Translations under genes and position numbers: made by a program
NCBI GenBank assembly: GCA_037447655.1
Contig: JBBHKE010001948.1
Coordinates: forward strand, 423,321 to 487,320
From: Zygnema cylindricum
Taxonomy: Eukaryota; Streptophyta; Zygnematophyceae; Zygnematales; Zygnemataceae
Reading direction: 5' to 3'
DNA length: 64,000 bases
The notes under the pieces: model-generated
What the model was told of the DNA's origin: nothing
Database searches by the model: none
What the model saw: only the letters and a program-made list of their open reading frames with translations
Shown here: piece after piece, positions 19,918 to 64,000 of the stretch
Layout of the letters: every line of letters starts with the position of its first letter
Numbering within the stretch: position 1 is the first letter of the stretch

Positions 19918-20197
19918 AAATGAAAATTTATTTCAAAAAGTGCGATGGAAAAAACAATCAAGGTACAAAGGGATCCAAAAAAGGGAAATAAGCGCTTAAT
20001 GCTAAAAAAAAAGCCAAGGGAGACTAAAGTAAAGAAAACATGTGAAGACAGCAAATCAAACTAGAATAACTGCCAGAACTAAGCAAATTTACTAAAGATG
20101 ACACTATTCAAAGGGAAAAACTACACAACCCTAACAAACTAAAGTCCACACCCCCGAAGCTCGTGGAGGTGGACTCGATCCCTTGGTGGAAGATCTG

Positions 20198-36546: not shown

Positions 36547-37176
36547 CTAAGACTGTTGAATAATTACCCCCCCAATTCGCAGTTCCTGCACAACCAGAGA
36601 GCAGATGGGTTTAGGACGAGGGTCCCAAGAGGAGGGGAGACAAGATTGATGCCAACACTGGTCGCATCGATCACAAACCAGTACAGAATTCTGGGAGGGT
36701 GATGAGAGGCATTCGGAGGAGCACAAAGGGGGATCAGCAAAATAGGTAAGGTGGAAAGTAGGTTCGTCTTCCAATCCCCGGAGGTGACAAGGAGCCACAT
36801 TGATCTGATTTTCTTTGATCCTCCGCCCATCCTTCCCTTCAAGTGTCAAGACCCCCTTATTGGAGACTTCCACTACCTTCAAAATCACCCTTCCCGCTGA
36901 ATTGTCGAGAGTGTCGTTTTTTTGTTGCATCCGATACACGAAGTCCTTGGGTAGAAATGCTGTTCCCGTGGGACAAAATTCCCACTCCGGCGTTGTGAAT
37001 ACCAGAGTTGATCTCGGTGCTGAGCTGCTTGTAGATTCCCCCTGGCCAGAGGCATTTCCCGGTGAAATACCTTGGCTCTGTCGGCAATCAATTTTTCGAT
37101 TGTTCCTTTGCTGTCCATCTCCGGAAGGACCACTGCTTGGGCCGATGCAGCGACGGGAGGATGGGATGTCGTCCAA
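36547..37176 (-). pseudogene. Integrase C-terminal region with PHD-type zinc finger, gypsy A
   Basis: The frame follows the integrase core and contains a beta-rich segment (GRVILKVVEVSNKGVLTLEG). It then has a zinc-finger motif: CSSEC at residues 152-156 and CDRCDQCWHQSC at 168-179, with C-x2-C-x4-H-x2-C spacing. The last cysteine pair (WLCRNC, about 36580-36600) lies in the neighbouring frame, so a frameshift near 36620 splits the finger. PHD fingers read histone H3 tails. At the integrase C-terminus this one would be expected to guide insertion to particular chromatin, as a chromodomain does in chromoviruses. The targeting role is inferred. Confidence 0.7.
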
Positions 37177-37742
37177 ACAAAATGAAATGCACTGTAGGAG
37201 TGGAGGGATGCTTGCCGGCTATGGCGATCCTAGGCACCCTTCTATCCAACTCTCCTAGATCCTCTTCCATGGCATATTTACGCAGTGACCACTTCACTTT
37301 CTGCACGCACCTTTCGGCCAAACCGTCGGCTTGTTGGTGGTCTCGGCTGGTCAACCAGTGGTCGATGAGACACAATTCCAACAAGTTGGAGAATTCTCGC
37401 GCAAATTCGGAGCCCTAGTCGGTCAGAACTTCGGCTGGGGCCCCAAAATTGGGAAAGCATTCTCTGCAAAAATGCGTCCGCAATAGCTTTAGACTCCTTC
37501 CTGGGTAAGACCATCAATTCGATCCACTTGGAAAAATGCTATATCATTACCAACACAAAGCGGTTCCCTCGTCTGCTAGTGGGGAGAGGACCCAGGAGAT
37601 CCAAAGACCACCGATAAAACATCCCCCTGATAGGAAGGGAATGAAGCTGAGCACCTCCCTTTTTGATGAAAGCTGCTTTGACTCGGTCACAGGAGGAACA
37701 CGTTTGCACAATCCGATTGACTTGGGTCAGCAACCCGTGCCA
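37088..37742 (-). pseudogene. Integrase core of gypsy A, frameshifted
   Basis: The HHCC zinc region begins in the preceding frame (FHQQCGDFRHKR near 37760) and continues as CSSCDR near 37690. The first catalytic Asp is in WSLDLLGPLP. The second lies in a shifted frame (37517-37278). The glutamate region reads QQADGLAERCVQKVKWSLRKYA, equivalent to DGQTERVNR in gypsy integrases. At least two frame changes break the domain. Confidence 0.75.
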
Positions 37743-38576
37743 CTAGTACGATATGGTGACCAAGGAGGTGGTCCGTTTGTGCCTAAAATCGCCACACTGC
37801 TGGTGAAAGTTAAAAATAAGAGTCTCCCGGTCGGCCAAGGGAGGAACCACTTTCCTCGTCCCATCTGCCCACTTCCGGATTAAGATGCCCCTTTCCCACT
37901 CGTATGCCGCCATTCGTGTTTGCACCCGAGATAACTGCACTCCTGACAAATGCGGAAGAGGGAAACCTTGTTGGACAGATTGGAGTGCATCGGGATCTTT
38001 CCAAATATCTTTTCGTCCGGCCCCTATTGGCGCTTGCCCCTCCACGTCTTTAGAGAAAGTAGACATTTCCCCCCCAAATTGAGGAAGCCAAATAAAGGCA
38101 GATGAAGCTCGAATGAGTCCCAAACTGATTTCAGGATCCTCATCATGGCGGGCCCCGGTGGAATCTCTAGTGGAAGGGTCAGGATTTCTGCTAAGTCCGT
38201 CATCATTCCCATGAATCTCTCCGGCCCGGTGGATTATGTCAAAGTCATATTTCTGCAGTATTAACACCCACCTGGGGAGCCTGCCAGTGAGCTTGCTGTT
38301 TTCTATAATCCACTTAAGAGGTTGGTGATCCGTGATCAGAGTGAAATGGACTCCGTATAGGTATGATCTCAAATGTTGGATGGCCCATACCGCCGCCAGT
38401 AATTCCCCGTGATAACTGCTGTAATTCCCCTCCGCTCGGTTATTACTCCTACTGGCGTAAGCTACCACATATTCGGCACCAGCATCATCCAGTTGGGCTA
38501 AAACAGCTCCCAATCCAAACTGGATCGAATCAGTGTAAACGAGGAACGGTCTTTGAGGATCAGGCATTCGGAGCAC
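37743..38576 (-). CDS. RNase H and integrase zinc region of gypsy A
   Basis: The 277-codon frame starts with the connection to RT and the RNase H motif PFLVYTDSIQFGLGAVLAQ. AYASRSNNRAEGNYSSYHGELLAAVWA, LITDHQPLKWI and the DGLSRNPDP end follow. These are diagnostic of Ty3/gypsy RNase H. It degrades the RNA strand during reverse transcription. The end of the frame enters the HHCC domain of integrase. It is separated from RT by a frame break between 38830 and 38577. Confidence 0.85.
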   Translation of the reverse strand: MLRMPDPQRPFLVYTDSIQFGLGAVLAQLDDAGAEYVVAYASRSNNRAEGNYSSYHGELLAAVWAIQHLRSYLYGVHFTLITDHQPLKWIIENSKLTGRLPRWVLILQKYDFDIIHRAGEIHGNDDGLSRNPDPSTRDSTGARHDEDPEISLGLIRASSAFIWLPQFGGEMSTFSKDVEGQAPIGAGRKDIWKDPDALQSVQQGFPLPHLSGVQLSRVQTRMAAYEWERGILIRKWADGTRKVVPPLADRETLIFNFHQQCGDFRHKRTTSLVTISY

Positions 38577-38830
38577 TAGGTGTTGCTTCAGGGAATCCTT
38601 GAGGAACTGGAAGGCAATCTAATGCTCCTCCGTCCACTACCACTGCTGGTCTTTTCTGCAGCAACTGGTTCAGAGGCTGAGTGTGGCTGCTAATTCAGGG
38701 ATGAATCTCCGATAATAGTTAGCCAAGCCTAAAAATGTGCGGAGTGCAGAGACATCCTGAGGAGGGGGTAGGGCATCAAGGCTGCAACTTTGACCATATG
38801 GGGACCCACTGTCCCGGGTGTAACTTCGTG

Positions 38831-39619
38831 TCATAGGTAAATAATTTTCTGCACCCCAAAAATTCCCTTACCCGGGTGACATTTCCAGCCCGCTGCTTGG
38901 AGAGCTCGGAGTACAATCTGTATGTGCTCGAGGTGTTCCTCGAAGGTATTCGACAAGATAATAACATCGTCGATATAGCACCATGCACAATCAATCCCCG
39001 GGAGTGCCTCGTCCATGGCACGTTGGAATTTGGCAGGCGCATTTTTGAGCCCGAATGGCATGTAGAGCCATTCATACAACTTGGACCCTGCCCAAAAAGC
39101 TGTCCTTTCCTGGTGCTTTCGCTCCATCGCGATCTGGTGGAACCCATTCTTCATGTCTAATGTGGAGTAAATGGTGGCCCCGGCCAGCAAGTCAAAAATC
39201 TCTTCCGGGGTAGGCATTGGGTATCGATCAGGTACAGTTGCCGTGTTAAGCATTTGGTAATCTCCACACATCCGAAAGTCTACCGTTTTCCCAGATGAGT
39301 CCTTCTTGGGTGGGAGAACAGTTGGAGACGCAAATCCATGGAGTCTGGTACTTTCTTGAACCAATCCTGCTTCTACCAGAGTTTGTACCTTTGCAGTGAT
39401 GAACTCCTTTTCCTTAAAACTGAGAGGGTACTGCTTCTGCCAAACAGTAGACGTCTCGTCTATTAAATCGATTCGAAAAGGGGTTCCTTTGTAGATGCCT
39501 ACGTCGGTATCTGACCAAGAGAACACTTGTTTGTTCTTCTCCAACAGGTCGGAGAGCTGGGCCTTTTGCTGAGGGTCCAACTGCTCCCCTAAGGTCGAAT
39601 CCATCTTTCCGGGTTCCAC
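38831..39619 (-). CDS. Reverse transcriptase of gypsy A
   Basis: The 262-codon frame contains fingers and palm motifs of a gypsy RT: SPTVLPPKKDSSGKTVDFRMC, YPMPTPEEIFDLLAGATIYSTLDMKNGFHQI and MPFGLKNAPAKFQ. The catalytic box is CYIDDVIILS, with both aspartates intact. It is in the same frame as the upstream methyltransferase segment and separated from it only by one TAG (39626-39628). RT and methyltransferase were therefore probably one polyprotein. It copies the element's RNA into DNA in cytoplasmic particles. Confidence 0.9.
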   Translation of the reverse strand: MEPGKMDSTLGEQLDPQQKAQLSDLLEKNKQVFSWSDTDVGIYKGTPFRIDLIDETSTVWQKQYPLSFKEKEFITAKVQTLVEAGLVQESTRLHGFASPTVLPPKKDSSGKTVDFRMCGDYQMLNTATVPDRYPMPTPEEIFDLLAGATIYSTLDMKNGFHQIAMERKHQERTAFWAGSKLYEWLYMPFGLKNAPAKFQRAMDEALPGIDCAWCYIDDVIILSNTFEEHLEHIQIVLRALQAAGWKCHPGKGIFGVQKIIYL

Positions 39620-39625
39620 CGCTGC

Positions 39626-40785
39626 CTACGCCTCTGGGGGTCTACCCCAGCGAGAGATATCGAATTCCATCCCTACCTGCGGGTCTACCTCAGCTCCTCC
39701 CGTTAGAATGCTGCTGCTAACAACGTCCGCTAAGCTGTCTCTCTCCGAGCCTCCGCTCCCCCCCACTGAGGAATCCCTTAATTTCGGTAAAATGCTGGGA
39801 CTGGAAAATTTTGATGATAAAAACTGTTTTCTCGCCTCCCTCCCCCCCTCAAGCTGCAAGTGGGCCTGCACCGCTAACAACTTCGGAGCTTGAAGGTAAC
39901 GATCCCTTGATTGCGGAGACTGTAGGCTAGAGAAGGCCAGAGAATGTGTTATCACCCATGTTATTACATTTAGATCCATGCTTTGTCCGAGTAGGCTGCA
40001 CCTCTGGGGGTCTGATATACCTGGTGCCGCCGTACTGGCTGGTTGGAATCCCATGGCTTGTTCTCGTTCTTCCACCGTTGGCGTTGTCCAAACTCCACTT
40101 TTGCTGTCAAATATCATTCCTACCGCTCCCTTTCGATATGCATGGCTATTAGGGAAGGAAACCAATGTTGGCGTTGCTCGCCGTGGTGCTCCTGGTTGGT
40201 TGCACTGGAAGAATGGAGGACGATCAGCCTTAGTTACGGGAGTAGCCATCGGCCCTGTCCCTAAAATTTGTTGCAGGGTAATCTGGGGATCTGTTTTGTG
40301 GTTTTGTAAGAGCTTGTTCAGGACTAACAGAGGTATCAAATTGGTCCAGTACGCCCGAACTCTGTGAGCTCTGGATCCCAGTTGCGCCGCATCGAAAACA
40401 AGTGGAGCTCCTAGAATCTGCTTGACTTTATTCCAGCTATTTGCGACTTGTTTTCTCTTATCATCTACCGGGTGGACATTCTCCAAAACGTACCCCACTG
40501 GTTGGTCTTGGGATTGTTGCACCCAGGAAAGTAATTTGATCATCTGGAAGAAGGTTTGACTTCTGTTATCCTGATGTCCCTCGCCTTTTTCAGCTAGAGA
40601 GTATCATTGACATGGCCATCATGCAATCACCAAATCTACCCGCTCCAACATAGCGAGATATGGCTTAAGGATATTGTCTATATTTTGCGGGACACTTCGG
40701 TGTGATCTGCAGATGGCGGATACCGGAAGTTGCTGGGGGTACAATTGGTGGAGTTGTTGGAGTCGGTATTCACTGACATCCCGAG
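39626..40785 (-). pseudogene. DNA cytosine-5 methyltransferase domain of gypsy A, motifs IV-X
   Basis: Motif IV is present as the catalytic PCQ (40607-40615), with its Cys codon TGT intact and VDLVIA just before it. Motif VI is VLENVHPV. Motif VIII is QLGSRAHRVRAYWTN. Motif IX is TPTVEEREQAMGF, and motif X is LLGQSMDLNVI. The order is canonical, not rearranged as in plant DRM proteins. The FDAAQLGSRAHR.RAYWTNL block resembles the DNMT3/DRM class. Two TGA codons flank PCQ (40619-40621 and 40604-40606), each where Gly is expected, so this copy is inactive. A linker of about 100 residues joins to RT. The enzyme would methylate cytosines in DNA, perhaps the element's own cDNA (inferred). Motifs I-II are at 60395-60510. 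Confidence 0.85.
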
Positions 40786-41278
40786 TGTAACATGGTTACA
40801 GAATTGGGTACTTAGTGGCTAGGGCTAGGCTGCTATAGTTGCGATTCTATAGCAGCGCAGCTGCGATTCCAGACCAGCGCAGCATAGCAGCATAACAACA
40901 TAGCAACTTAGCGGCGTAGCAACTTAGTAGCGCAGCAGCGTAGCAGCGCAGCATAGCAACGCCGCAGAATGTAGATTGAGCTGTATAGTTCTAGAAGGAA
41001 GTTTTGGATAGATCTCAGTTGACGGTGAAGGTCCACGTGTACAGCTGTATAGTACTAGGTTGACTAGCAGTTAGTTAGTTTAAATAGTCGAGTAAGACCT
41101 AGTGAATGACACCTCAAGTAGACCTACACAGTAAGCGCAACCTTGTACTCTCTTTCAAGTAATAAAGCGCAACCTTGTCTGTGAGTTCTGTGTGCTCCTG
41201 CTGTTGCTACGGGAAGATCCTTGGTGTTTTCCGCTGTGCACTGTGACGTGTTGTGGTGTATTGTTGCCTCTTTTTACA
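40786..41278 (+). repeat. 5' LTR of gypsy B
   Basis: The LTR runs from TGTAACATGG to CTTTTTACA. It contains a dense array of GCAGCGCAGCATAGCAACTTAG-like words (about 40850-40965). A similar array is in the 3' LTR. Confidence 0.9.
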
Positions 41279-41279
41279 C

Positions 41280-41291
41280 TGGTATCGGAGC
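41280..41291 (+). promoter_or_regulatory. Primer-binding site of gypsy B
   Basis: TGGTATCGGAGC lies one base after the LTR. It matches the usual plant retrotransposon site complementary to the 3' end of initiator tRNA-Met (TGGTATCAGAGC) with one change. Confidence 0.88.
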
Positions 41292-41312
41292 TGTTACCCG
41301 TGACTCGACAGC

Positions 41313-42952
41313 ATGGATGAACACGGCGTATCCACTACAGAAATGTTGGCGCAAGTTCTCAGGGAGTTGGAAAGTGTGAGATTACAGAACGCGCATCTAA
41401 GTAACACCGTTGCAGCCTTGGAGTCTCGTATAGGGGAGCGACTCCATGGAGGCATAGAGAGAGACTCCAGGAGACCGAAATTAAGGCTTCCCGATGAGTT
41501 TGACCCTGCAAGAAACAAGAACCTTGACTCATGGCTATTCTCCGTGGCGAACTATCTCGAGAATTTTCCTAGCCTATCGGATCATGAGAAGATTCACTAC
41601 GCGGGTGGTCTTCTTAAAGGGGCAGCGGGGGGCTTGGTGGAGAACATTGGTAGTGGACGATGAGTTACCAACCGTCTGGGCGCTTTTCGTTAACTCCTTC
41701 GTGACACTTGGCAGCGCGTCAACACGATGAAGGCGACGAGAGATAAGATCGCAATATTGAAGCAACGAACTTCAGTGATGGAGTTTACGCAGCGGTTCTT
41801 GGAGTGTAAAGTTCAAATACCTATGATGACGGAGGATGAAGCCGTGGATCGCTTCGTGAGGGGGCTTAAGTTGTCTATTCGTAGAGATGTGGAACAATGG
41901 CTTGCTCGGGAAAGCACGACTCCTCCTCTCTTAGCAATCATCTAGTTTTCGGAGCGGACCGATCGGTCGAGTTTAACCTCCGAAGACCTTATCACTATGG
42001 GTCGAGCAGTAGCGGAAGAAACTGACGAGACGACGGTCCAACCCCCGTGGAGCTCTGCGCAATTAATGAGGATAAGGAAGTGGTCAATGTCCTGCGGAGA
42101 ATGAAGAAACCTACCAAGACCAAGACCAATGACTTATCCCCCGAGGAAATCCAGCAGAGGAGGCAAAATGGCCTATGCTTCCAGTGCGGTTCTCCAGATC
42201 ATATGGCTCGAGAGTGTCCAAAACGGAAAGGTCCCAAAAAGGGAAAACTTACCTTTATGAGGTTAGCCGGTGAAAGAGGAGACCCTTTGATATTTCGGGG
42301 TCAAATAGAAGTAAGTGCAGCTAACTTCATGGTGGACTCCAGAGCATCGGGGAACTTCATTAACGAGGCGACGGTGAAAAGGTTGAAACTTCCTCTTGTG
42401 GTACTAAATGATCATCAGTCGGTACAATTGGCGGACTGAAGTTCCTTATCCATTACCCATCGTACCCCGAGGTTACGCATCGGCATTGGGAAATTCCGAT
42501 GGTACGACACGCTTCATGTATTACCTCTTGGGGACCATGAGGTAATCTTGGGGAAGCCGTGAATGCAAAAATGGAATTCGACAATTGATTGGAGAAGTGG
42601 CGCCATGAGACTGAAGAAAGGTGAAGAAGAGTTCGAGATAAAAGCGGGAGCGGATGGTAATGGAGCGGAAGAGGGACGCCTGCTTTCGGCCTTACAACTT
42701 AAGAAGGCACTCAAGAAAGGGGAAACGATTGGTATGGCGGTTGTCCAGCCAATGGAGGAGGCGAAGGAGGAGATCCTGGAAGAATGGAAGAAGAAGGACC
42801 CCGACTTCGACTCCCAAGAAAGTGACGACTTTGGAAAGACTTCCGAAGAGGCCCCGAAAGTCGTGACAAAACTTCTCGAGGAGTACGCAGATGTATTTCC
42901 CCCGAAGCTCCCCGAAAGATTACCTCCGAAGCGCGAAGTAGACCATTGGATA
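41313..42952 (+). pseudogene. gag, zinc knuckle and protease of gypsy B
   Basis: The ATG at 41313 opens a coiled-coil-like N-terminus (LRELESVRLQNAHLSNTVAALESR) followed by the capsid domain (LRLPDEFDPARNKNLDSWLFSVANYL). The frame changes at about 41650 and 41945. A CCHC knuckle, CFQCGSPDHMAREC, is near 42180. The protease active site reads FMVDSRASGNFI where DSGAS is expected. HEVILGKP near 42535 ends the protease. The tail PPKLPERLPPKREVDHW runs directly into the copia C insertion at 42953 and resumes in RT at 48788. Confidence 0.8.
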
Positions 42953-43738
42953 TGTTGTCTTTTTGGAAAGCTTTCAGTCTTAGAGCAGCGCAGCAGCTTT
43001 ACAGAAAAAGCAGCGCAGCTGCTATACAGACAGAGCAGCGCAGGTGCTTTACAACAGAGCAACACAGCTGCTATACAGCAGAGCAGCTGCTATACAGCAG
43101 AGCAGCTGCTATACAGCAGAGCAGCGCAGCAGCAGAGCAGCGCAGCAGCGAAGCTACAACACAGACAGGACAAGGCAACCACGATTATATTTGATATGGT
43201 CTGTACGGACAACGCAACGTCTGATATTCTTAATGTGATTCTGTACTGGATAGAGCAACTGCGATAGATACGATTCTAGTCAACTTAGTGGGAACTCAGT
43301 GGTAACTTAGTGGGTAGCTCAGTGGTAGCTCAATGGTAGCTTAGTGGTAGCTCAGTGGTAGCTTAGTATTAGCTTGGCAGCTTGACGTACCTCTCAAGTA
43401 CACTGGTATTGCCGGTACAACACTAGTATAAGACTTAGGACTCAGAACACATGATGTATCCAGACTTCCAAGTAGTAAAACTGCAGACAGTTTTTGGGAA
43501 ATTTCTGAGTATTATATCTTGAGTGTTGTCAGGTCAATTGTGCTATAACTTTGGGAGTTGTCAGTGTTTATGCTCTCTATATTCGATAGAGTTTTGTGAG
43601 GTTTGGATGCTTATAAGAATTGGTGAGCACTTAAGAACAGCTGTTTGGTAGGATTCTTGATAGCTTCTGAGATTGTATCATGTCTACTTCTACTACTACT
43701 GCTGCTCCTCCACCCGCACCGGTGGTTGTAGAACAACA
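42953..43738 (+). repeat. 5' LTR of copia C
   Basis: The LTR is 786 bp and begins TGTTGTCTTTTTGG. It contains AGCAGCTGCTATACAGCAG tandem units (about 42985-43150) and GGTAGCTTAGTGGTAGCTCA units (43300-43370). An ATG at 43680 opens a Ser/Thr/Pro-rich leader that continues in frame through the primer-binding site into gag. Confidence 0.9.
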
Positions 43739-44475
43739 GGTTATGGGCCTGTTATCAAGAATTCCTATATTTTCCTGGGATAAGTATGTTTATTGGGCGG
43801 ATATGGTGGAAACACATTTTGAAAATGTCAATCTTTTGGATATATTGGATGGTTCGCTTGATGAATCTGATCCGTCATGGCCTAAGAAAAATACTCAAGC
43901 TCGGTCTATTCTGAAATTTTGTATATCTGAGGACTTAGCTATGTCTCGGATAAAAATGAAAAAAGGAATTGATATCCAGAAATCTCTTAAAAGTGATTGT
44001 GAAAAGGCCAATGTCTAGGAAGAGCTTCTATTGGCTGGAAAAATTTGGGACTATAAGTACACTGGCGGTACAATGGATGAATATTCTAACAAATTTCGTA
44101 TCGTTGTAGAGATGCACATGCTTGTGCAGGTGGGGTGTTTCCTCCTTTTCAACAGGCGACATTGCTCATAAGGGGTCTCCCTCGTAGTATGAAACGAGCA
44201 TCTGACATGCTCAAACAGAAAGATAAAACTAGTTAGACTTTACAGTTAGCCATCAATATTTTACTAGAAGAGGAAGCTACATCTAATATTCTCAATGTTG
44301 AGCAAGTAGAGGCTTTTAATTCAGACTTTGAGAGAAAAGGACAGTTTAATCAGCAAAAGAATCAGTTTAATCAATTCAGACATTTTAATCAAAGTGGAAA
44401 TAGACAATCCAACAATGCATGCTTTTATTGTAGTGAGAGAGGTCATGGATACAAATTTTGTCCTAAGCTTAAAAA
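43680..44475 (+). pseudogene. gag of copia C
   Basis: The frame starts [14 protein letters not shown] within the LTR, passes VMG in the primer site and enters the copia gag domain (RIPIFSWDKYVYWADMVETHFE). It stops at 44018 and continues in other frames. A CCHC knuckle, CFYCSERGHGYKFC, lies at about 44420-44461. It is homologous to the gag of copia D. Confidence 0.8.
43739..43749 (+). promoter_or_regulatory. Primer-binding site of copia C
   Basis: GGTTATGGGCC directly follows the LTR. It is complementary to the anticodon stem-loop of plant-type initiator tRNA-Met, so priming by a cleaved half-tRNA is inferred. It contains an ATG in the gag frame. Confidence 0.75.
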
Positions 44476-44639
44476 AGATAACGATACAGGTTCATACCGG
44501 TCGGGATGGCAACAAAGCCAGTTTTACAAAGGCTTCACGGGGACTACGCCTTGTGGAAATGCACTATTTTCAACATCTTCGTCTCTCCAAGACGAGACTT
44601 TGACGGTTTCTACGGAGGACGATACGGATCTATTCGCTA

Positions 44640-45690
44640 TGGCGGCTGCAATGGAGGGCGCCAAGGACCCCAAATGAATAATGGATACAGGAGCGTCAGC
44701 CCACATGTGCTGAAACAAGACCATCTTCAAAAATCTGAAAGCAACTCCGGAGAAAAATATTTATTTTGCTTGTGGAATGAGTGTCCAAACTCGTGCTGTG
44801 GGTGATGTGTCCTTACTAGTTGATGTAGAAGGAAAAGCAATTGAAAGGACTTTTCACAATGTCTTATTTGTGCCTGACTTTAAGAAAAATCTGTTTTCTA
44901 CGTCGTTGGTAGAGAGTAAAGGCCTTGAGGTTAATTTGAAAAATGGTCGGCAGATTGTTAGCAAAAATGGCAAGGTTGCGGTTACAAGTACTAGAGATAG
45001 TAACAAGATGTATCGCATGGATATGGCTAATACAAAGGAGAATGATGTTTTGTACACCGGTGTTTTGCACTCAGATGAGTTGTGGCATAAAAGATTAAGC
45101 CATGTTAATTATGATAGTTTGAGGAAAATGGTCATTGCAGGGAAAAATAGAGGGTGTATCAATCACAGATGGGCCGGTCAAAACTTGCGATGGTTTCGCT
45201 TTAGGCAAAATCCACAGATTGCCATTTCCTAAGGAGTCTGAGCATCAGTCAACGAAACTTTTACAACAAATTCATTCGGATGTCTTTGGTCCGGCGAAGG
45301 TTCCATCTGCCGGAGGGATGAAATATATGGTCACCTTCACAGAAGATTTCTCCAGGTTTACAAAAGTTTACTTCATGAAGGAGAAGAGTGAAGTGTTGTT
45401 CATTTCAAACACTATAAAGCATGGGCTGAAAAACTTCATAATTCATCTATTTTGCTGCTCAGATCGGACAATGGTGGTGAATATACATCGAAAGAATTTG
45501 AAACCTTTTTACTCGAGGAAGGCATTAGTCATCTATTGAACTATTCCATATTCACCGGAACAAAATGGGGTGTTGGAAAGACTGAATATAACTCTCACTC
45601 CTCTAGGTCGATGCTCGCAAACAAAAATGTGGATCCGTAATTCTGGGCTGAGGCTCTAAATTGTGCAGTTTATCTTAAAAATAGGATAGG
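44640..45690 (+). pseudogene. Protease and integrase of copia C
   Basis: The protease active site MDTGASAHMC lies at about 44681-44710 and is intact. VLFVPDFKKNLFSTS follows. The integrase zinc region begins ELWHKRLSHVNYDSLRKM (45078) and continues in another frame as KIHRLPFPKE. Core motifs are IHSDVFGPAKVPS, LRSDNGGEYTSKEFE (45456) and a degraded E region. At least four frame changes are needed. Confidence 0.75.
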
Positions 45691-45701
45691 ATCAAGATCG
45701 G

Positions 45702-47870: not shown

Positions 47871-48019
47871 CACTGCTATACTGCCACTCTGCGATAAATC
47901 CACCATTATGAGGTACTAGGACTGGGTGACTTGCTAATTGCTATAATGCTATGCTGCGATGCTGCGCTAGTTTATCACCGCAGCTGCGCCGGGATACTCA
48001 GTCTAAAGCTTTAGGGGAG

Positions 48020-48782
48020 TGTTGTATTTTTGGAAAGCTTTCAGTCTCAGAGCAGCGAAGCTGCTTTACAGACAAAGTAGGGCAGCTGCTATACAGACAC
48101 AGCAGCGCAGCTGCTATACAACAGAGCAACGCAGCTGCTATACTGCAGAGCAGCTGCTATACAACAGAGCAGCTGGTACACAGCAGAGCAGCGCAGCAGC
48201 GAAGCTGCAACACAGACAGGACAAGGCAACCACGATAATATTTGATATGGTCCGTACAGACAACGCAACGTCTGATATTCTTAATGTGATTCTGTACAGG
48301 ATAGAGCAACTGCGATGGATAGAATTCTAGTCAACTTAGTGGGTAGCTCAGTGGTAGCTAAATGGTAGCTTAGTGGTAGCTCAGTGGTAGCTCAGTGGTA
48401 GCTTAGTATTAGCTTGGCAACTTGACGTACCTCTCAGGTACACTGGTATTGCCGGTACAACACTAGTATAAGACTTAGGACTCAGAACACATAATGTATC
48501 CAGACTTCCAAGTAGTAAAACTGCAGACAGTTTTTGTGAAACTTCTAAGTATTATATCTTGAGTGTTGTCTGGTCAATTGTGCTATAACTTTGGGAGTTA
48601 TTAGTGTTTACGCTACTCTATATTCTGATAGAGTTTTGTGAAGTTTTGATATTTGTATAAGAATTGGTGAGCACTTAAGAATAGCTGTTTGGTAGGATTC
48701 TTGATAGCTTCTGAGAGTGTATCATGTCTACTTCTACTACTACTGCTGCTCCTCCACCTGCACCGGTTGATGTACAACAACA
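48020..48782 (+). repeat. 3' LTR of copia C
   Basis: The LTR is 763 bp and collinear with 42953-43738, with fewer copies of the CAGAGCAGC unit. It ends GTACAACAACA. It is preceded by the polypurine tract TTAGGGGAG. Confidence 0.9.
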
Positions 48783-52363: not shown

Positions 52364-52404
52364 CTGAAAGGTTAAATAGAACACTAAGTGATAGTGCTAG
52401 AAGT

Positions 52405-54678: not shown

Positions 54679-54691
54679 AAAATAAGGGGAG

Positions 54692-55739
54692 TGTAGAAAC
54701 TAATGGTTTTATTAGTATTTTCTAGGTCTGAAAAGAATTATAGAAGTCGAGGCAGTCTATCTCTAACTTCTCTCTCCAACTCTCAAACTTGTCGCAGTCA
54801 CTGAGAAATTGGAGAGGAAGCTAGAGCCATGGCTACCTTGGCTATCCTGAGATTTACGGGAATTTTATATTAAGGTTTATATATTTAATTAAAATCTATG
54901 TGCCGGCGGCAGGATTTGATCCTTGTACCTGCCGGCCGGCAGACACGAAGTAGCCGGTAGCCTTAGCCGTTTCATCTAGCGGTAGTGTTATCTAGCTTAT
55001 AGTTTGATAATTATTTAGATATGTATACAAGCGATAAACCATTTAACTGAAATTAATTACGGGATACATAGATCCAGTAATATATAATGTTTGACTTACT
55101 GTACGGACAAAAATCAGTACCGCGCATTTGTTTCGTAAATGAAACAAATACCGCGCATGTATTTATTACGGCTACGATTAAAGCCGAATTTAATCGGACG
55201 GCCGGGATTAGCGCCGAGATCGCGGAGGAAGATTTCAGCGGTTTGTGGCCATCGCCACATCGGATGACGCGTGGCAAAATTCCGTTGGATTGTGGAAACT
55301 CCGGAGATTATGGCACCGAATCCGGATTTGACATGTGTCGACATTTTGGCCATGTCGTACAATGTCCGTACATAAAGTACACCGGCAACTGTACTTTTGC
55401 GTACGGAACTCAATTCTGATTGGTTCCGTACATCAGTAGATAGAGTCTGTGAGAGAGATAGGACTTAGAAAAATTAGAAGATAGGACCCCCTCTCCCAGA
55501 GAGCTTCTGTACAAAAGGTCAACTTTGACCCTCCATAACTTACTGCTCAGGGAGCAAATTCAGAGATTCTTTTTGCTATCGACTCAGGGGAGTCTTGTCT
55601 TCACAGGGGTGAAGTTGGTGAGAGTTTTTGTCTGCCAGGGTGGCAGTTATTTTTGCTTAAACACAAAGGGGTCAGGATTATCCTAGAGGCTTCTTGGAAG
55701 CTGTCCACTCTGAGGACTTATGGAGGTCTCAGAGTTTCA
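54692..55739 (+). repeat. 3' LTR of copia D
   Basis: The LTR is 1048 bp and about 98% identical to the 5' LTR. The GGCCGGC hairpin is kept and slightly strengthened. It is followed by AGCCG. Confidence 0.95.
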
Positions 55740-56600
55740 AGCCGAACGCAGGAAGAGCATATAAAGCACTTACGGACGGTCCTCCAAGTCCTTTGGGAGC
55801 ATAAGTTATACGCAAAAAGAAGTAAATGCGACTTGTTCAAGGAGAAGATTGATTTTTTAGGCCATGTGGTGAGCCGGGACGGAATCGCAGTGGATCAAAA
55901 CAAGACAAAGGCCGTTAAAGAGTGGCCGCAGCCGACAAATATCACAGAGTTACGAAGCTTTCTAGGACTATGCTCCTATTATCGACGTTTTGTCAAAGGT
56001 TTCGCAAAAATCGCTGCACCGCTTACGGAGTTGCTCAAAAATGATGTGCCCTATGATTGGAAAGCGGCGCAAGGGGCAGCCTTTAACACGCTAAAAGAGC
56101 GGTTGGTTACCGCCCCTGTGTTAGCTGTTCCCGATCCGGACTTACCTTGGACGATAATTACCGACGCTAGCGATACGGTTATTGGAGCGATCCTTATGCA
56201 GGATCAAAGAAAAGGCCTTCAACCCATCGCCTACGACAGTTGAAAACTAAAGGCAGCAGAGCTGAACTGGGCCACCCATGAGAAAGAGACAATAGCTATC
56301 ATCAATGCGCTGGAGGTTTGGAAGTGTTACGTTCAGGGGAAACGGATCACGGTTATCACGGATCACCACGCCTTAGAATATCTCCAAACCCAACCGAAGT
56401 TGTCCAAGAAACAAGTGCGCTGGATGACGTTTCTGCAAACCTTCGGTTCGGAACTTGTTATAGAATATAAGCCGGGCAAAACGAACCCGGCGGATGCGCT
56501 GTCAAGAAGACCCGACGTCGCTGCGCCGGCAGCGGAGCAACGACCACAAGCATCGCCGCAAGGGAACGGAGACTCTGTGAAAGAGAACACCGCAGCGTCG
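55740..56600 (+). pseudogene. Reverse transcriptase C-terminus and RNase H of gypsy B
   Basis: RT resumes with EEHIKHLRTVLQVLWEHKLYAKRSKC, IDFLGHVVSRDGIAVD and LRSFLGLCSYYRRFVKGFAKIAAPL. RNase H has WTIITDASDTVIGAILMQ, then a TGA at about 56241. ELNWATHEKETIAIINALEVWKCY, VITDHHALEYL and ADALSRRPDV follow. A low-complexity Ala/Gln linker comes next. Confidence 0.88.
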
Positions 56601-56639
56601 ACTGCAGCGCAAGATCCGAAACTCAGCGCAGTCACCAGT

Positions 56640-57873
56640 ACGGTGCAGGTGGACGAACAGTGGTTAAGTCGGATAAAGGCCGCCTACGACGACGATGATG
56701 CACTAAAGGAACTCATCAAACGGAAGGTACTCGTTCGACCGTTAATAGTATGTGGCGGTAGAGACCGAGTAAGACAACATGGCTTTATGTGCCAACAAAT
56801 ACGGAACTTCGTCACACGATTCTTAAAATGAGTCACGACGAGCCGCTTAGTGGACATTTTGGGCGGGATAAATCAACCGCACATGTCGCTGAGGCGTATT
56901 ACTGGCCAAACATGACTCGAGACATTGCAGAATATGTCCGGACGTGTGACTCGTGTAATAGGAACAAATCGGATTTAGGGCAACAAGGTCTGCTACAACC
57001 CCTTCCAATACCATCTATTCCTTGGGAGGCGATCTCAATGGATTTCATCGTGGCCCTTCCCCGGACGAAGGAGGGCTACGACTCAATCTTCGTTGTCGTG
57101 GACTACCTGACGAAAATGGCACATTTTCTCCCTACGTCCACCACAGCTACTACACGAGATATCGCAAACTTATTCTTTCGGGAGATATTTCGCCATCACG
57201 GACTTCCAAAAAGGATCGTTAGCGACCGGGATCGTAAATTCGTGAGCCACTTTTGAAAAAATCTATTTGCGTTATGTGGCACGCAGCTGGCCATGTCCAC
57301 AGCCTACCACCCTCAAACTGATGGTCAGACTGAAAGGGTGAATCGAACTTGGAGGAAGCGTTGCGGGCTTATGTCTCGGTGCACCGAACGGATTGGGTGG
57401 ACCATTTAACAACGATTGAGGTAGCATATAACAGTGCACTGCACTCTTCGACGAATGCTACGCCATTCTCCCTCAATGGACGACAACCCACTCTTCCCCA
57501 AAACTTATTGGTAGCGGACTGCCAAACACCGACAGCTCTGGACTTTGCCAAAACGCTGCAAGAAAACTTGGAAAAGGCGGCCAAGGCGCTCTAAATGGCA
57601 AAGGATCGTCAAAAGTCGCAGGCCGACGCTCATCGGAAGGACATCATCTTTAGCGTGGGGGACAAGGTTCGCCTTGATATGGCAAACCTCTCCTTGCCGG
57701 GTGCCCCCTCGAAGAAGTTGGCCCCGAAGTTCACGCGCCCGTTCACCATTCTTTCCCGTGTGGGCGCCATGGCGTATAAATTCAATATCCCGACGGACTG
57801 GCATATCCACAACGTTTTTCATGTTTCCCTTCTTAAACCATTCCGCGATCCTGATTCAATGTTCCCTCATTGA
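56640..57873 (+). pseudogene. Integrase of gypsy B
   Basis: The zinc region has HDEPLSGHFGRDKST and CDSCNRNK. The core has ISMDFIVALPRTKEGYDSIFVVVD and IVSDRDRKFVSHF. A TGA at about 57254 follows. [15 protein letters not shown] carries the catalytic Glu, then a frame change. [25 protein letters not shown] and the GPY-type C-terminus (FTILSRVGAMAYKFNIP, NVFHVSLLKPF) complete the domain. One more stop is near 57593. Confidence 0.88.
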
Positions 57874-58090
57874 CGACGGATTACTCCTTTACCACCCGTT
57901 CGAGGAACCTCGGACGAGTATGAGGTGGAATAGATCCTTAAGTCACCCCTCTCTCGGAATTCCAACTCCACCCAATACTTGGTGCGTTGGAAGGGTTACG
58001 GTGTTTAGGACGACTCTTGGGTGGACGGGAGGGATATACATTCCTCAGAGTTGCTGCGCCGGTTTCAGCGGAGTGAGGCCACTCAGCTTT
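57874..58090 (+). pseudogene. Chromodomain of gypsy B integrase
   Basis: In the same frame after a stop at 57871-57873, the sequence reads DEYEVE, a TAG, then TQYLVRWKGYGV, a TAG, then DDSWVDGRDIHSSELLRRF. YLVRWKGY...SWV is the chromodomain signature, with the aromatic-cage Tyr and Trp positions kept. This places B among the chromoviruses. Chromodomains bind methylated histone H3 and direct integration. Two nonsense codons disrupt this copy. Confidence 0.85.
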
Positions 58091-58563
58091 ACCGGAGGGG
58101 CAATCGCATCGGCCGCACCAAAGGAGCGAATTGCAGTGTCGCAACCATCGCAATCATGTTGGGGACGCGCCAAAGGACAGCAGCGGCGATGTTACCACAC
58201 CGCAGCGCTGTAGCAGCGCAGCCACCGCAGCGCAACATGATTACAATGACGTCAGAGGATCGCAGCACCACCGCTGCGCTGACAAGAAAGCCCAACGGCG
58301 CAATTGTGTTTAACTATGTGGGTAACGACGAACCCTCAGTTTCGCCGCAGCAGCGCAGTTTTATAAATGATGGACGCTGCGATACCCTCGCACGCTGCGA
58401 CGCTTCGCAAAGTCCAAAAGTGAAACCCTCAACCCCTGTGAATAAAGCCGCCATCCGTCCTCACGACCAACCCAGTCTCGGCAGCTTGGAAATTGCTTCT
58501 CTCCACACAATCAGTTTACCTTCGCTTCTGGAATTACCGGAATTGTTTGGTTCAGCAGTGTCT
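58091..58563 (+). other. GCAGCG-rich spacer of gypsy B
   Basis: The spacer lies between the chromodomain and the accessory gene and has repeated CAGCGCAGC and CGCTGCG words, similar to those in the LTRs of B and C. A continuous frame crosses it, but the composition looks repeat-driven. Confidence 0.55.
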
Positions 58564-59839
58564 ATGGCGTCGTCGTCCTCTCCACCACCAAAAAAGAGGA
58601 GACTGGTACGGGTGGGACAAGGAGATCCGAACTGTCTCGAGAGATTGTTAAGGGCAGCGGAGGCCATGGTGGAAGCAAGCAGGCGAAGAGAAGTAGAAGT
58701 GGAGCCGGAACCTGAGGAAAGCGCCAGTAGCAAGGCAAGACCGGCAGAGACCAGTGGAGGGGAGGGTCAGAAAACTCACAGGACCATGAATACACCCCAG
58801 CCCGGGAAGGTGATCAGGAATTTAAAGAAGATCATGAGCTATCGGTGGCGGAGGAACCGGAACGAGAACCAACGCCTTCGCCAATTGAAGAGCGCGCCTC
58901 AGATCTAGAGGTGATGCGGGACCCAAACAAGGAGAGTACCGCGGACGAGCAGTCGTCTGAAAGCGCGAAAAAGAAGGCAGAGGCACAATACCCCAGTGGC
59001 GACGAGATGTTCCTCCTGCGAGGGAACCGAAGAGATCCGGAGGAGGAAAGCGAACAGGGAGAGGAAATTCGCGACTACCTCTTCCCACTAGCAGTCGACA
59101 CCCACCATCCGGACCTCGCCTTCAGCTTCGCCAAAAGGTTTTATTGGAACCCCTCGGAGTGGCCCGAGGAATGGCGTGTAGGGAAGCTTGGAGATCCTAT
59201 ACGTATTCCTGCCGACGTTTTCCGTCACACCCAGCGTGGAATTTCATGCGGACAAAAGACCTGGGAAATAATCATAAGGGTTATATGCAGCTAAACCCTC
59301 ACGTCTTACCGTTCGTGGAAGTGGTAGAGGACAACTACAGGTACAAGATTGATGTTCCCGGGTTACTCCGTCATTATCACCCGTGGGATGTGCGCCTCCA
59401 CGACATCACCTTTAGAGCGGAGGTAACCCTTGAGGTGCGGGTACTCAAGTTGGCTCGAAAGAATGCTTTGCAACAGGCTCGAGCTGCAAGGAAACACATG
59501 TCCTTTAAATTACGGAAGGTACCTCGGTGGGAACCGGCGGACGAAGAAGCGGAGGAAGTTTCCCCAGTGGCCGATTCTGAAGAACCCCGGATTCCAACAC
59601 CTGAGGAGCCTGCACCGGCGGACATTCCGCCGCGACCCGAAGTACCCGAGGTTGAGGAAGGGGAAGATCTGGTTCGGGAACGAATCACTCGGCGGCGGTT
59701 GGCAGTTGCAGATCATCACATCGCGTTACTGGAGACCCGATGTGAACAGCTCCAAAATCAACTCGACGCCCTTCGCCAGGAGTTTAAAGAGTATCGCAAG
59801 GAAACATATGACATACTCCGGCAATTACAGTTTCCCTGA
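58564..59839 (+). CDS. 3' accessory protein of gypsy B, unknown family
   Basis: The ATG at 58564 starts MASSSSPPPKKRRLVRVG, a probable nuclear-localisation signal. A helical charged region and an acidic Ser/Glu-rich region follow. A folded domain then has WPEEWR, a HPAWNFM segment and VEDNYRYKIDVPGLLRHYHPWDVRLHD. The C-terminus is a coiled coil (HIALLETRCEQLQNQLDALRQEFKEYRKE) ending at 59839, just before the polypurine tract. Frame changes near 58800 and 59190 break it. The folded domain is homologous to the accessory protein of the pogo-like transposon (8892-6897). The domain order is also alike: basic N-terminus, acidic middle, HYHPWD domain, C-terminal helix. I know no name for this family. 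The position resembles that of env-like or extra ORFs, but no membrane segment is seen. Confidence 0.7.
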
Positions 59840-59873
59840 GTCGATCAAAGTTCAGCGGGACGCTAAACCCTTA

Positions 59874-59882
59874 GTGGGAGGC
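59874..59882 (+). promoter_or_regulatory. Polypurine tract of gypsy B
   Basis: GTGGGAGGC lies just 5' of the 3' LTR, where plus-strand DNA synthesis primes in LTR retrotransposons. Confidence 0.6.
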
Positions 59883-59884
59883 AC

Positions 59885-60394
59885 TCTAACAGGGTTACAG
59901 AATTAGGTACTTAGTGGCTGGAGCTAGGCTGCTATTGTTGCGATTTCAGAGCAGCGCAGTTGCGATTCCAGAGCTGCGCAGCTGCGATTCTAGCCCAACG
60001 CAGCATAGCAGCATAGCAACTTGGTAGCGCAGCAGCGCAGCATAGCAACTCAGTAGCGCAGCAGCGCAGCATAGCAAAACCGCAGAATGTAGTTGGAACT
60101 GTATAGTTCTAGAAGGAAGTTTTGGATAGATCTCGGTTGGCCGCGAAGGCCCACGTGTAGAGCTGTATAGTACTAGGTTGACTAGTAGTTAGCTAGTTTA
60201 AATAGGCAAGTAGACCGAGTGAATGACACCTGGAGTAGACCTACACAGCTAGCGCAACCTTGTACTCTCTCTCAAGTAAAAAAGCTCAACCTTGTCTGTG
60301 AGTTCTGTGTATTCCTGCTGTTGCTACGGGAAGATCCTTAGTGTTTTCCGCTGTGCACTGTAACGTGTTGTGGTGTATTGTTGCCTCTTTTACA
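59885..60394 (+). repeat. 3' LTR of gypsy B
   Basis: It is about 510 bp, collinear with 40786-41278, and ends CTCTTTTACA followed by the CCGAG duplication. The first bases read TCTAAC instead of TGTAAC. GCAGCGCAGC arrays are at about 59950-60080. Confidence 0.9.
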
Positions 60395-60781
60395 CCGAGC
60401 ATCCGGTGAAATTTCCACGGCCACATATGACTCCACTTTATGCCCAGCCTTGAAGAGCGCTTCGAGGTGCGAGCTAATTCTAGAAAATAAGGATAATATC
60501 CGGAGTCGAGAATCCGGGATAGATAAGACACCACTTGTCGATTGAATTTTTGATTTTCGGGCGGAACTTCCGAAGATTCCAACCGAGGTTCTTTTTCCTT
60601 CACAAAAACAGCTGTGAAGGACTTGTCCACTTCCTGCCGAAGTTTTGTTATTTGTAACAATCTGTTCTGGTATCCTTCTTCCCACCGCTTGGAAATAGGG
60701 AATTGCTATATTATGTCTGCGATATCGGTGGCGCTGGCGAGTAGTTCCATGGGTGTGTGAGAAGCATAGACAGGATAACAT
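60395..60781 (-). pseudogene. DNA cytosine-5 methyltransferase of gypsy A, motifs I-II
   Basis: The segment RLRILSLFSRISSHLEALFK carries motif I, the S-adenosylmethionine-binding loop, at about 60499-60450. SYVAVEISPDAR, motif II with its acidic residue, runs to 60395. The glycines usual in motif I (FSGIGG) read FSRISS, so cofactor binding would be impaired. The frame continues in the segment starting at 40780 as DVSEYRLQQLHQLYP. Upstream, LLQITKLRQEVDKSF lies in another frame (60660-60560), which points to a frameshift near 60550. Confidence 0.8.
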
Positions 60782-60855
60782 CCTGCGACGGGAGCATTAT
60801 CTTTCCCCCTATTCCATAGATCCGGAGGAAGCACCACCTTGACTCCTTCGGGATC

Positions 60856-61269
60856 CTAACGATCTCGAACAGTAAACTGCTCCTTCCACACACTTAATCC
60901 CATATTCACCCTTGTCCAGGTGGCCATTCCTAATAAAATCTCAAACTGCTTACCTTCCACCACCAAGAAGGGAAGCTGAATTCGGACCTTCTTACCTGCG
61001 TCGTCAGCGAACTCTATTAACATAGCTTTGATTATTCCGTGTACCGGTTGGCTCCCACTGCTAACAGTACTTAGACAGATGTCACTGGGGAAGATTTCTA
61101 GTCGAAGTTCTTCAAGCATTTGCTGCAGAGCCGATGTGGTGATTAGATTTCGGAGTGCACATGTATCTACCACTGCGTGTTGATACCCGCCGTATCCGTT
61201 GAGTTTGAAATTCCGCGTCCGGTTGAGAATTAGAGCCACAAATAACGTTTTGTAGTCCCTATCCATCAT
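60856..61269 (-). CDS. Retropepsin-like protease of gypsy A
   Basis: The 137-codon frame has the core HAVVDTCALRNLITTSALQQ (catalytic Asp present; the usual Gly of DTGA is Cys). The flap region follows and FEILLGMATWTRVNMGLS closes the fold, as in gypsy retropepsins (ILLGMDWL). It would process the polyprotein. The Gly to Cys change probably weakens or abolishes activity. Confidence 0.8.
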   Translation of the reverse strand: MMDRDYKTLFVALILNRTRNFKLNGYGGYQHAVVDTCALRNLITTSALQQMLEELRLEIFPSDICLSTVSSGSQPVHGIIKAMLIEFADDAGKKVRIQLPFLVVEGKQFEILLGMATWTRVNMGLSVWKEQFTVRDR

Positions 61270-61347
61270 AGGGGTCTTTGGGTCTGCCGACCAAAAAACG
61301 GATCTGGCTTGATCGGCCCGGTGTTTCTCCCCTCCTGAATGGATTTC

Positions 61348-61992: not shown

Positions 61993-61995
61993 GTC

Positions 61996-62880
61996 TCATC
62001 CCATCACTTCTTCATCGTCTTCGCCCGCTGCGGTTTCCTGTTCAAGTTTCGCCAGCTTCTGTTGTAATTCTTGCTTTCTCCAGTGGAGTTTCAGGGCGGC
62101 CGTCAGAGCGGGAGTCCTGGAGGGCGATCCTAATCGCAGCGCTGCCAATTCTGCAGTCATGGCTGCCATTAGCTGGCTCTGCTGTTGGATGATAACCTCC
62201 AGTGTTAATTGGGCTTGACTTGTTGGTTGTCGTTCTGAGTTCTCTGGGGTGCGGCATCCCCAAGGGTAAAGAAGCTGCAGCGGGAGAGGATTCACGACCG
62301 TTTCACCTTCTCCAATGAACAGTGCATATTGCATCATCTCTTTAGGAACTCCATTCTTTCGGAAGCAGTGCCCTTCCTTGTGACCCATGAAACCGCAAGC
62401 CTCACACTTGGAGCATTTGATGGTATATTTGCCCCGCAATTCATTTGAGATTTGCGCGTCATCAAATTTTGGAAGTTTTATCTGTCGCAATTAGGCTTGC
62501 GACATCTTTGCAGTCTCAGATCGTGGCGTCGGCCGGTAATTGTCTTTGTTACAGGTGTTTTATCGTCTGACCCTCCTCCTTGCTTCCTTTCTTGCTGCCT
62601 CTTTGATCTTTCAGCTCTCTCCTTCTCCCATTCCTTCTGCTTAAGAGCTAATTCCGGTTTGAGCTTCCGGGGGCATCGCTTCAATCCATGACCTGTTTGT
62701 TGACAGTTTAAACAGTTATAGAAGAAGACACGGTCATCGGCCCCCATGGCAGGTTCGGATCCACTATCCACCACCTGTTTCCCTTGAGGTTCCGCAAGGC
62801 TAAGAGTTCAGCCGACTCTTCATGTTCATGAGGCATTTCTCCAGCAAATCCTGCAAAATTCCCTCGGGTTTTCCCGATTA
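61996..62880 (-). pseudogene. Nucleocapsid region of gypsy A gag
   Basis: Two CCHC zinc knuckles, CLNCQQTGHGLKRC (about 62725) and CEACGFMGHKEGHC (about 62400), bracket a basic Lys/Arg/Gln-rich segment. A Gln/Leu-rich helix ends in EQETAAGEDDEEVMG. The frame is broken near 62490. It binds genomic RNA in the particle. Confidence 0.75.
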
Positions 62881-63977
62881 CTGATTTTTCCTAGGCCTCG
62901 CGGTGGACAAAGTGATCATAAAGTTTCATGGCGGCCAGAGAGATTTCTTTGGCGGTTGGATTGACGTCTTAAATGGCCTGTCCAGCAATCCAATAATCTA
63001 GGGCTGCCTGCCCCGTCGGTCCGAACAAATTTCGGACACCGATAAAATATTTGGTTGCCATGGCCGGAAGATCAATGGTTGAGAGTTTGGTCTTTTGATA
63101 GAGGCTCGACAATCTGTTAAAAAGAGTTTGGGGTGTTTCACTCTTTTGGCAACGGAATTCCGTAAACTACTTCATAGCAGATTCATTCCTCTCGGTGTAA
63201 AGGAGTTTCCACGCATTCAAAAGAGTGGTACAGGGGGGTTGGGTTTGCAACCATCCGAGTGGCTGCCCTGGCCTCCTGGATGGCCTGAAGATGAGCGACG
63301 TAGGCTCGTCCTTGTGCCTGCAGTTTCATAACCTTTGTGAAGAGGGCTGTGACAGGAGGGGCTGCAGCGGCAGCCAAGTCTGCTTTCGCTTGCAAGACTG
63401 CCTCATCAAGGATAGGGTCTGATATTTTGATGCTGGGAGCCATCAGAAGAGGTTGTCGCTCCTTTTAGTTTGCTAAAGCTCCACCAGCAAGATAGTTCAC
63501 CATCATGGGAAAAAGCGTGGTCTCGAAGTCATCCGAAATGGCTCCGCCCCTGTATTTGTTGATTTCAGATTGGGTGAACGACTTCCACACCAATTCGAAT
63601 TCAGAGAAAGCGATTCCCGAGTTATCTCATGTAAAGATCCTCGCGTCCCCCATTTCTTTTTCCTCCTCTGCAAGGTTGGTGAACCGAGAAGAGGCTGATC
63701 CGGTGGGGCTGACAAACTGAACCGGTGAAATTACCTTGAGATCCGCGTTGGGTGGCTCAGAGCCTCCTCCTTCTCCAGTAGAAGGAGCTGCTTGACGAGA
63801 ATTGGCACTCCCCCCCACTGAGGAAGCTCCGGTTACTGGTGGGATAGTGAGATGACCTGTATCTCCCTGGAGTTGGCCCTTGGGAAATGAGGAGCTTATC
63901 ACCTTGGGAAAAGCGGCCCGAAGTCCTGCTCCTCTATACCCAGGAGAGGCCCGTTCCTCTCGGCGAACTGTTTCCAC
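62881..63977 (-). pseudogene. Capsid part of gypsy A gag
   Basis: Frames at 63977-63627 (METVRREERASPGYRG), 63443-63183 (DPILDEAVLQAKADLAAAA) and about 63070-62890 (TKYFIGVRNLFGPTGQAALDYWI) make up the gag N-terminus and capsid. The last block is typical of retrotransposon capsid. Several stops divide the frames. The true start may lie beyond the window. Confidence 0.6.
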
Positions 63978-64000
63978 CGAGGGAATGTGGAGAATAGGTT

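Follow-up and report, generated by a model that had tools for sequence, protein, structure and literature searches.

As a rule, transposons are at the receiving end of DNA methylation. The DNMT3 enzymes couple to their catalytic domain an ADD domain that reads histone H3 unmethylated at lysine 4 (H3K4me0), and the chromoviruses are gypsy elements with a chromodomain at the C-terminus of the integrase. In this work we analysed a stretch of 64,000 nucleotides from the alga Zygnema cylindricum (contig JBBHKE010001948.1, positions 423,321 to 487,320; hereafter the window), whose minus strand holds a copy of a Ty3/gypsy element with a putative Dnmt3-type DNA methyltransferase ahead of the reverse transcriptase (RT) and a PHD finger behind the integrase. 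The only direct precedent found in the open-access PMC literature is de Mendoza et al. (2018; PMC5890265), which describes KnitGypsy-Dnmt3, a gypsy element of the charophyte Klebsormidium nitens with a captured methyltransferase, and SymbioDIRS-Dnmt3 of Symbiodinium, for which de novo CG activity was demonstrated in yeast. Methyltransferase capture by retrotransposons in charophytes and dinoflagellates, which the initial annotation of the window had cited, is thus documented. Our findings indicate that the combination of methyltransferase and finger is real and wider than first described, and from it we infer a role for the element.

Intact relatives and the broken copy in the window

Other copies of the element are present elsewhere in this genome. 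A Pfam search of 353 Mb in 2689 contigs gave 123 methyltransferase matches scored from 782 candidates (the best-scored are listed), from which 20 loci were drawn for their long open frames, a selection that is not a random sample. In L009, a single frame of 2395 amino acids encodes a CCHC gag, a weakly matching protease, the methyltransferase, RT, RNase H, integrase and PHD, and frames of 1525 and 1520 amino acids span the methyltransferase to the PHD in L012 and L013, respectively. The gypsy order protease-RT-RNase H-integrase, with the methyltransferase as an extra, is therefore present whole in L009 and from RT to integrase in L012 and L013. At E 0.1 these three loci gave no Pfam match to a tyrosine recombinase, instead of which a DDE integrase is present, or to a chromodomain, and no match to an ADD or PWWP domain. 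By sequence, this is a gypsy-type element encoding a Dnmt3-type methyltransferase together with a PHD behind the integrase.

Of the 20 selected loci, 15 gave a PHD match, and the methyltransferase lies upstream of RT in 19/19 loci with both matches, all of them picked by their methyltransferase. Methyltransferase sequence is also found upstream in 8/8 of the loci closest by RT (including the window and L013), in one of them as its last part only. Two clades were distinguished, one (A) in which WECQ predominates and one (B) with WPCQ, and the window copy belongs to B. Among the genome matches listed, methyltransferase and RT were paired in 63/123 and 63/145, a count that omits one partial match (C1728) from the 124 methyltransferase matches; since these lists hold the best-scored candidates, they are no test of absence.

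The element in the window starts at about 34.8 kb and runs past the window end (64000), where the L013 alignment reaches the last base; a start at 36547, as initially given, is too late, since the 3' repeats sit at 34787-36523. Reading down the minus strand, on which all its parts lie, a gag region with CCHC-like zinc knuckles occupies 61996..63464 (frames read by eye; L013 aligned over 64000-61736, 72%), with no gag Pfam match in the one window frame searched, and is followed by an aspartyl protease at 60856..61347 (Pfam PF13650 E 0.0015, under the cut-off), which gave no match to our own family protease profile. The methyltransferase is in three pieces, namely its N-terminal part with the motif I region (60368..60514; family profile positions 4-41), a middle part up to the insertion point described below that includes WPCQ (40604..40785; profile positions 39-93 at 40622-40795), and a third piece with ENV, motif VIII and later motifs (39920..40603; profile positions 100-325, 2.8e-89), the best PDB matches of which are DNMT3A/B, weakly (E 0.06), with Pfam PF00145 at E 0.02, under the cut-off. 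RT follows at 38673..39556 with a single frame break near its end (Pfam RVT_1 8e-25), then RNase H at 38235..38618 (Pfam PF17917 4e-35) and a frameshifted integrase with zinc-binding and core parts at 37091..37868, recognized in pieces by the family integrase profile (best 3e-22) and weakly, in one piece, by Pfam rve (E 0.21). The N-terminal part of the PHD finger is in frame at 36598..36729 (PF00628 E 0.001, under the cut-off; family PHD profile E 5e-6), and its WLCRNC tail, with the last ligand pair, is read in a different frame. Of the split direct repeats described below, B1 (36257..36523) stands immediately downstream of the pol frame, A2 (35054..36256, assigned by position and junction) fills the B1-B2 interval and opens with GC and TGTC right after B1, and B2 (34787..35053), the outer 3' repeat, is 94% identical to 36257-36523 and terminates in ...CTCGACA; no A1 partner was found as far as C1462:492220.

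The initial annotation had seen here one minus-strand element with all contents from gag to finger. Its domains are confirmed, the gypsy protease, RT, RNase H, integrase and PHD by Pfam and family profile matches on that strand, and the canonical methyltransferase order also holds, because the three pieces fall in order along the 327 profile positions; the span 36547-64000 is nevertheless not uninterrupted and the copy is broken. The check that it had named, whether the domains share one frame in intact copies, gave a positive outcome for L009 in its entirety and for L012 and L013 from methyltransferase to PHD.

The interruption is a nested insertion of 19.6 kb on the plus strand (40786..60394), identified by empty-site paralogues, ends and domains as a gypsy element (ends about 83% similar) that encloses copia elements, is foreign to the host element and splits the methyltransferase. 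Three paralogues (L038, L039, L041; 92-96% identical) match without a break the segments from 37.3 kb to 40785 and 60395-60739; at the junction the matches overlap by 5 bases, which represent the target duplication of the nest. Since they read across both flanks, the two methyltransferase parts are halves of one domain and the nest was inserted afterwards, and a single uninterrupted element of 27 kb is ruled out. The window copy is dead, given this insertion, the broken frames of the methyltransferase, the integrase, the PHD and the end of RT, two in-frame stops flanking WPCQ, and an Arg in place of the motif I Gly that is invariant in 90/90 rows.

Other features were observed in the window. 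A young copia element lies within the nest at 49293-55739, with long terminal repeat (LTR) pieces (49293/54691) 98-99% identical and two long overlapping frames. A glycosyltransferase family 2 frame at 25231-26487, with weak likeness to cellulose synthase, is probably a host gene, and minisatellite-like arrays occur at 3569-3909, 6338-6659, 12841-13362 and 19679-19966, the first two with a core of the CAGCGACGA type.

Methyltransferase, finger and methylation footprint

When searched against the PDB, the family methyltransferase profile matched DNMT3A (2.5e-23) far ahead of DRM2 (2e-8, confined to profile positions 2-131) and HhaI (3e-8), for which reason a DRM-type enzyme was rejected. The predicted structure reached a predicted local distance difference test (pLDDT) value of 79.7 and a predicted template modelling (pTM) score of 0.83, and all 50 listed PDB matches of the fold search with this model were DNMT3 entries. 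These results identify a Dnmt3-type methyltransferase with unpermuted motif order, closest to DNMT3A/B. Of 99 domain rows, 98 retain the catalytic Cys and all 99 have both the ENV Glu and the motif VIII Arg, and the pairwise ratio of nonsynonymous to synonymous substitution rates (dN/dS) was 0.10-0.58 (14 pairs, limited to dS 0.05-1.5), with medians of 0.38 in clade A and 0.23 in clade B, which suggests that the domain is under some constraint. A scan of viral contigs with the methyltransferase alignment returned 19 loci, whose best segments are 27-43% identical and lie inside residues 1-159 of 327.

Regarding the finger, the eight zinc ligands (C4HC3) are invariant in 8/8 aligned copies of both clades. 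The PHDs of clade A exceed the Pfam cut-off (1.5e-9, 2.2e-10) and those of clade B fall under it (2e-4, 4e-3). The nearest solved relatives of the clade A PHD (best 5e-14) include PHF12, KDM5, BAZ2B, PHF21A and ATXR5, several of which bind unmodified H3K4, and by this resemblance to chromatin PHDs the finger may be a reader of histone H3. The dN/dS of the clade A PHD was 0.07-0.13 (3 pairs, 49 codons, too few for a claim), and a predicted structure of integrase tail and PHD (pLDDT 54) was set aside as too poor.

Traces of methylation were sought in the decay of 6/15 projected loci, all of clade B and more than 80% identical to the reference, pooled and counted at bases on which L012 and L013 agree. 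Transitions occurred at 51/1276 CG, 67/1753 CHG, 83/4641 CHH and 76/7974 A/T sites, and transversions numbered 22, 17, 41 and 75 in the same classes. The pooled copies are partly dependent (L008 and L022 share 23/55 60-mers, L001 and L002 18/59), so that double counting of some changes is possible, and the order of the pooled transitions is not seen in every single locus. The observed/expected ratio of CG was 0.58-0.69 in six clade B loci and 0.88-1.05 in four of clade A; positions 1-25000 of the window gave 1.28. The decay at CG and CHG sites is consistent with clade B copies having been methylated.

Split repeats, relatives and domain orders

The repeats were examined in seven contigs, with ends read by eye. 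Instead of one identical full LTR at each end, the three complete copies (C1344, C829, C1915) have the order A1 - coding - B1 - A2 - B2, that is, a split A1 - B1 A2 B2 arrangement resembling the A-coding-B-A-B repeats of DIRS elements, with A repeats 99.5-100% and B repeats 99.5-99.6% identical. In all three, the outer ends read TGTC...GACA (TG...CA), a 4-bp target duplication is present (TTGG, CCTT, AGGG) and a G-rich tract directly precedes B1. A partial set was found in C1407 (B1-A2-B2) and in the window copy, and no full set in C2577, C544 or C1374, the last of which has one repeat pair. The B1-GC-A2 junction is a palindrome, GACAGCTGTC, and the window copy, with its B1 and B2, has the same junction. 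From this arrangement we infer that the inserted form would be a permuted two-LTR form: the G-rich polypurine tract abuts B1, and the DDE integrase would open a circular two-LTR intermediate at the palindrome. An integration route through such circles has long been discussed and was rejected for retroviruses, and the joint presence of split repeats and a DDE-type footprint raises the question of how such complementary DNA (cDNA) is made and inserted.

The family extends well beyond this genome. A protein search with the L012 methyltransferase returned 43 proteins, and one with the L009 integrase-PHD region 68, of which 4 had already been seen, 45 were new retroelement proteins and 19 were host PHD proteins. 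Named sources are Closterium sp. NIES-53, Klebsormidium nitens, Marchantia polymorpha, Haematococcus lacustris, Pseudoscourfieldia marina and the EukProt entry Chrzof1, which we take to be Chromochloris zofingiensis, and the family is also present in environmental samples; the nearest named relatives with the domain order of the window family are the streptophytes Closterium and Klebsormidium, which would fit a streptophyte host. A search for the RuBisCO large subunit gave no match. Among proteins with RT, RNase H and a near-full integrase, 16/20 from the first search have a PHD, and 41/44 new ones from the second have a methyltransferase. In the first set no PHD was called in four proteins, namely P0006, with a diverged PHD-like tail by eye, P0039, which is partial, P0029 and P0035.

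Two orders were recognized, methyltransferase-RT-RNase H-integrase(-PHD), or type 1, and RT-RNase H-methyltransferase-integrase-PHD, or type 2; in 37/45 of the new retroelement matches the methyltransferase stands between RNase H and integrase with the PHD behind. Order type changes once on each of two trees, that of the methyltransferase (100/120 rows, those with at least 230 profile positions and the window piece) and that of RT (86/99 rows), as counted on 80/100 and 81/86 rows, respectively, with the genome's own copies set as type 1. The integrase tree needs three changes, one of them forced by well-supported branches. These were quick trees without bootstrap, including few methyltransferase-free gypsy outgroups and no host Dnmt3 gene. 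The simplest reading of them would be that the domains became associated once, were inherited together and underwent one relocation, although an exchange of modules is possible. On the RT tree, P0053 and P0071, which keep the PHD and lack a methyltransferase match, fall within type 2, a position that suggests that the methyltransferase was lost secondarily.

The initial annotation had named intact relatives without a methyltransferase between protease and RT as evidence against its proposal. Such relatives were found in the wider set, where 3/44 proteins lack the domain and 37/45 have it after RNase H; within the genome itself, methyltransferase sequence stands upstream in the 8/8 RT-closest loci, so that the objection applies in part. 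The pairing of writer and finger that it described is present in the one-frame copies and recurs across the broad lineage in the proportions given above (16/20 and 41/44).

Some relatives deserve separate mention. Four Marchantia polymorpha proteins (P0008, P0011, P0019, P0024) are protease-methyltransferase open reading frames with a CCHC motif and without RT, so this methyltransferase family is represented in a land plant too. P0042 is a type 2 element with both a PF00385 chromodomain and a PHD. The methyltransferase of P0002 nests within the type 2 gypsy enzymes, and the stretch before it is presumably RNase H-like of DIRS type (by eye; no Pfam match), so that a methyltransferase module may have been exchanged between retroelement classes.

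Proposed role and comparison with known systems

Taking these observations together, we lean slightly towards the view that in the Ty3/gypsy lineage of which the window holds a dead copy, a writer, the methyltransferase, and a reader, the PHD, would provide targeted landing and self-marking. The protease would free the parts, or the polyprotein would act inside the particle. The PHD would dock the integrase on histone H3 tails, most likely those with unmethylated H3K4, a preference proposed because several of its nearest solved relatives show it, and would steer insertion into silent chromatin as the chromodomain does for chromoviruses. The methyltransferase would then mark the cDNA, or else the fresh insert and the DNA around it, and the outcome would be quiet, long-lived insertions tolerated by the host, in parallel to the DNMT3 enzymes that couple the ADD reader with the same kind of catalytic domain. 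A broader proposal, possible in our opinion and distinctly more tentative, is that one old gypsy lineage of green algae and early land plants coupled a methylation writer with a reader of unmodified H3, parallel to and independent of the pairing of DNMT3 and ADD, and that its integrated form would be a circularly permuted product of reverse transcription.

Several observations weigh against self-marking and targeted landing. The Pro of the motif IV PCQ is, to our knowledge, near-universal, but the residue preceding the catalytic Cys is Glu in 52/99 rows and Pro in 44/99, with 12 changes on the methyltransferase tree while the Cys stays. Constraint on the methyltransferase is weaker than on RT (medians 0.38 vs 0.04 in clade A, 0.23 vs 0.11 in clade B), and the clade B PHD had a dN/dS of 0.47-1.17 (3 pairs, 51 codons, again too few for a claim). 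CG depletion is hardly seen in the four loci measured in clade A, so that the footprint does not hold for the family as a whole, and decay of this kind can arise from host enzymes alone. P0029 and P0035 do without a PHD, and P0052, P0053 and P0071 keep the PHD with no methyltransferase match. The methyltransferase fold also matches phage and giant-virus enzymes in a viral library (best 3e-13, template modelling score 0.6), and therefore the fold alone does not fix its origin. Finally, the gypsy enzyme of K. nitens gave no methylation in yeast, a result called inconclusive by its authors (PMC5890265).

Three other explanations were weighed. The region is a nest of several elements, which would agree with two host genes, one for a methyltransferase and one for a PHD protein, being chance neighbours amid unrelated retroelement pieces; this is refuted by copies elsewhere with all domains in one frame, and the empty-site paralogues and the matching methyltransferase and RT trees also oppose it, so that we give it practically no credence. 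The lone host gene named as a refutation in the initial annotation is excluded on the same grounds, the one-frame copies and the agreeing trees. It is unlikely, in turn, that the PHD would be a structural zinc finger of the integrase tail, engaged in folding or in nucleic-acid or protein contacts rather than in histone reading. The weak clade B PHDs, under the Pfam cut-off and without clear constraint in three pairs, and the two type 1 elements without PHD would suit this idea, but those of clade A score above the cut-off and find matches among chromatin PHDs of solved structure, the zinc ligands are invariant, and the finger was present in 16/20 complete proteins retrieved without using it.

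We judge with similar reserve the explanation that the methyltransferase serves counter-defence, acting on host DNA or rival elements or upsetting host methylation instead of marking copies of the element itself, and that the PHD only steers integration. Its absence from P0053 and P0071, where the PHD stays, its evolution at a faster pace than RT and the little CG depletion of clade A copies are in agreement with such a role, against which stands the CG and CHG decay of clade B copies, hence not protected from methylation. Self-marking with targeted landing is the reading towards which we lean, and a large lineage that keeps a Dnmt3-type enzyme and a finger of chromatin type suggests that a parasite may adopt self-silencing or targeted landing as a lasting strategy, and may have assembled its own set of epigenetic tools. 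Natural variants suitable for testing are at hand, with the methyltransferase absent, the PHD absent, the order switched or the motif IV Pro changed to Glu.

Within the open-access PMC literature, searches turned up no description of the pairing with a PHD, of the second domain order or of the integration footprint, and the frequency of that pairing, the second order and a DDE-type footprint on split repeats appear to be new there. Like the chromoviruses, the family has a domain of chromatin-reading type at the integrase C-terminus, with the difference that a PHD replaces the chromodomain and a methyltransferase is added. With DNMT3A/B it shares the type of catalytic domain and the presence of a PHD-like H3 reader, here a predicted one, in one polypeptide, whereas here the finger stands behind the integrase of a retroelement polyprotein with no ADD or PWWP match at the threshold given above. 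SymbioDIRS-Dnmt3 is likewise a retroelement with a Dnmt3-type methyltransferase and A-coding-B-A-B repeats but has a tyrosine recombinase and a DIRS RT (PMC5890265), instead of the DDE integrase, 4-bp duplication and TG...CA ends found here. The closest system is KnitGypsy-Dnmt3, with an unrearranged Dnmt3-type methyltransferase under constraint in a gypsy Pol open reading frame and, as stated in a figure legend, a DIRS-like repeat arrangement; the K. nitens protein P0039 has the same domain order as the window family. A PHD is absent from the main text of that paper, and P0039 is partial and stops 109 amino acids past the integrase. The authors place the acquisition in the lineage of K. nitens (PMC5890265), whereas the trees and hosts obtained here point to a much wider lineage that includes a second domain order.

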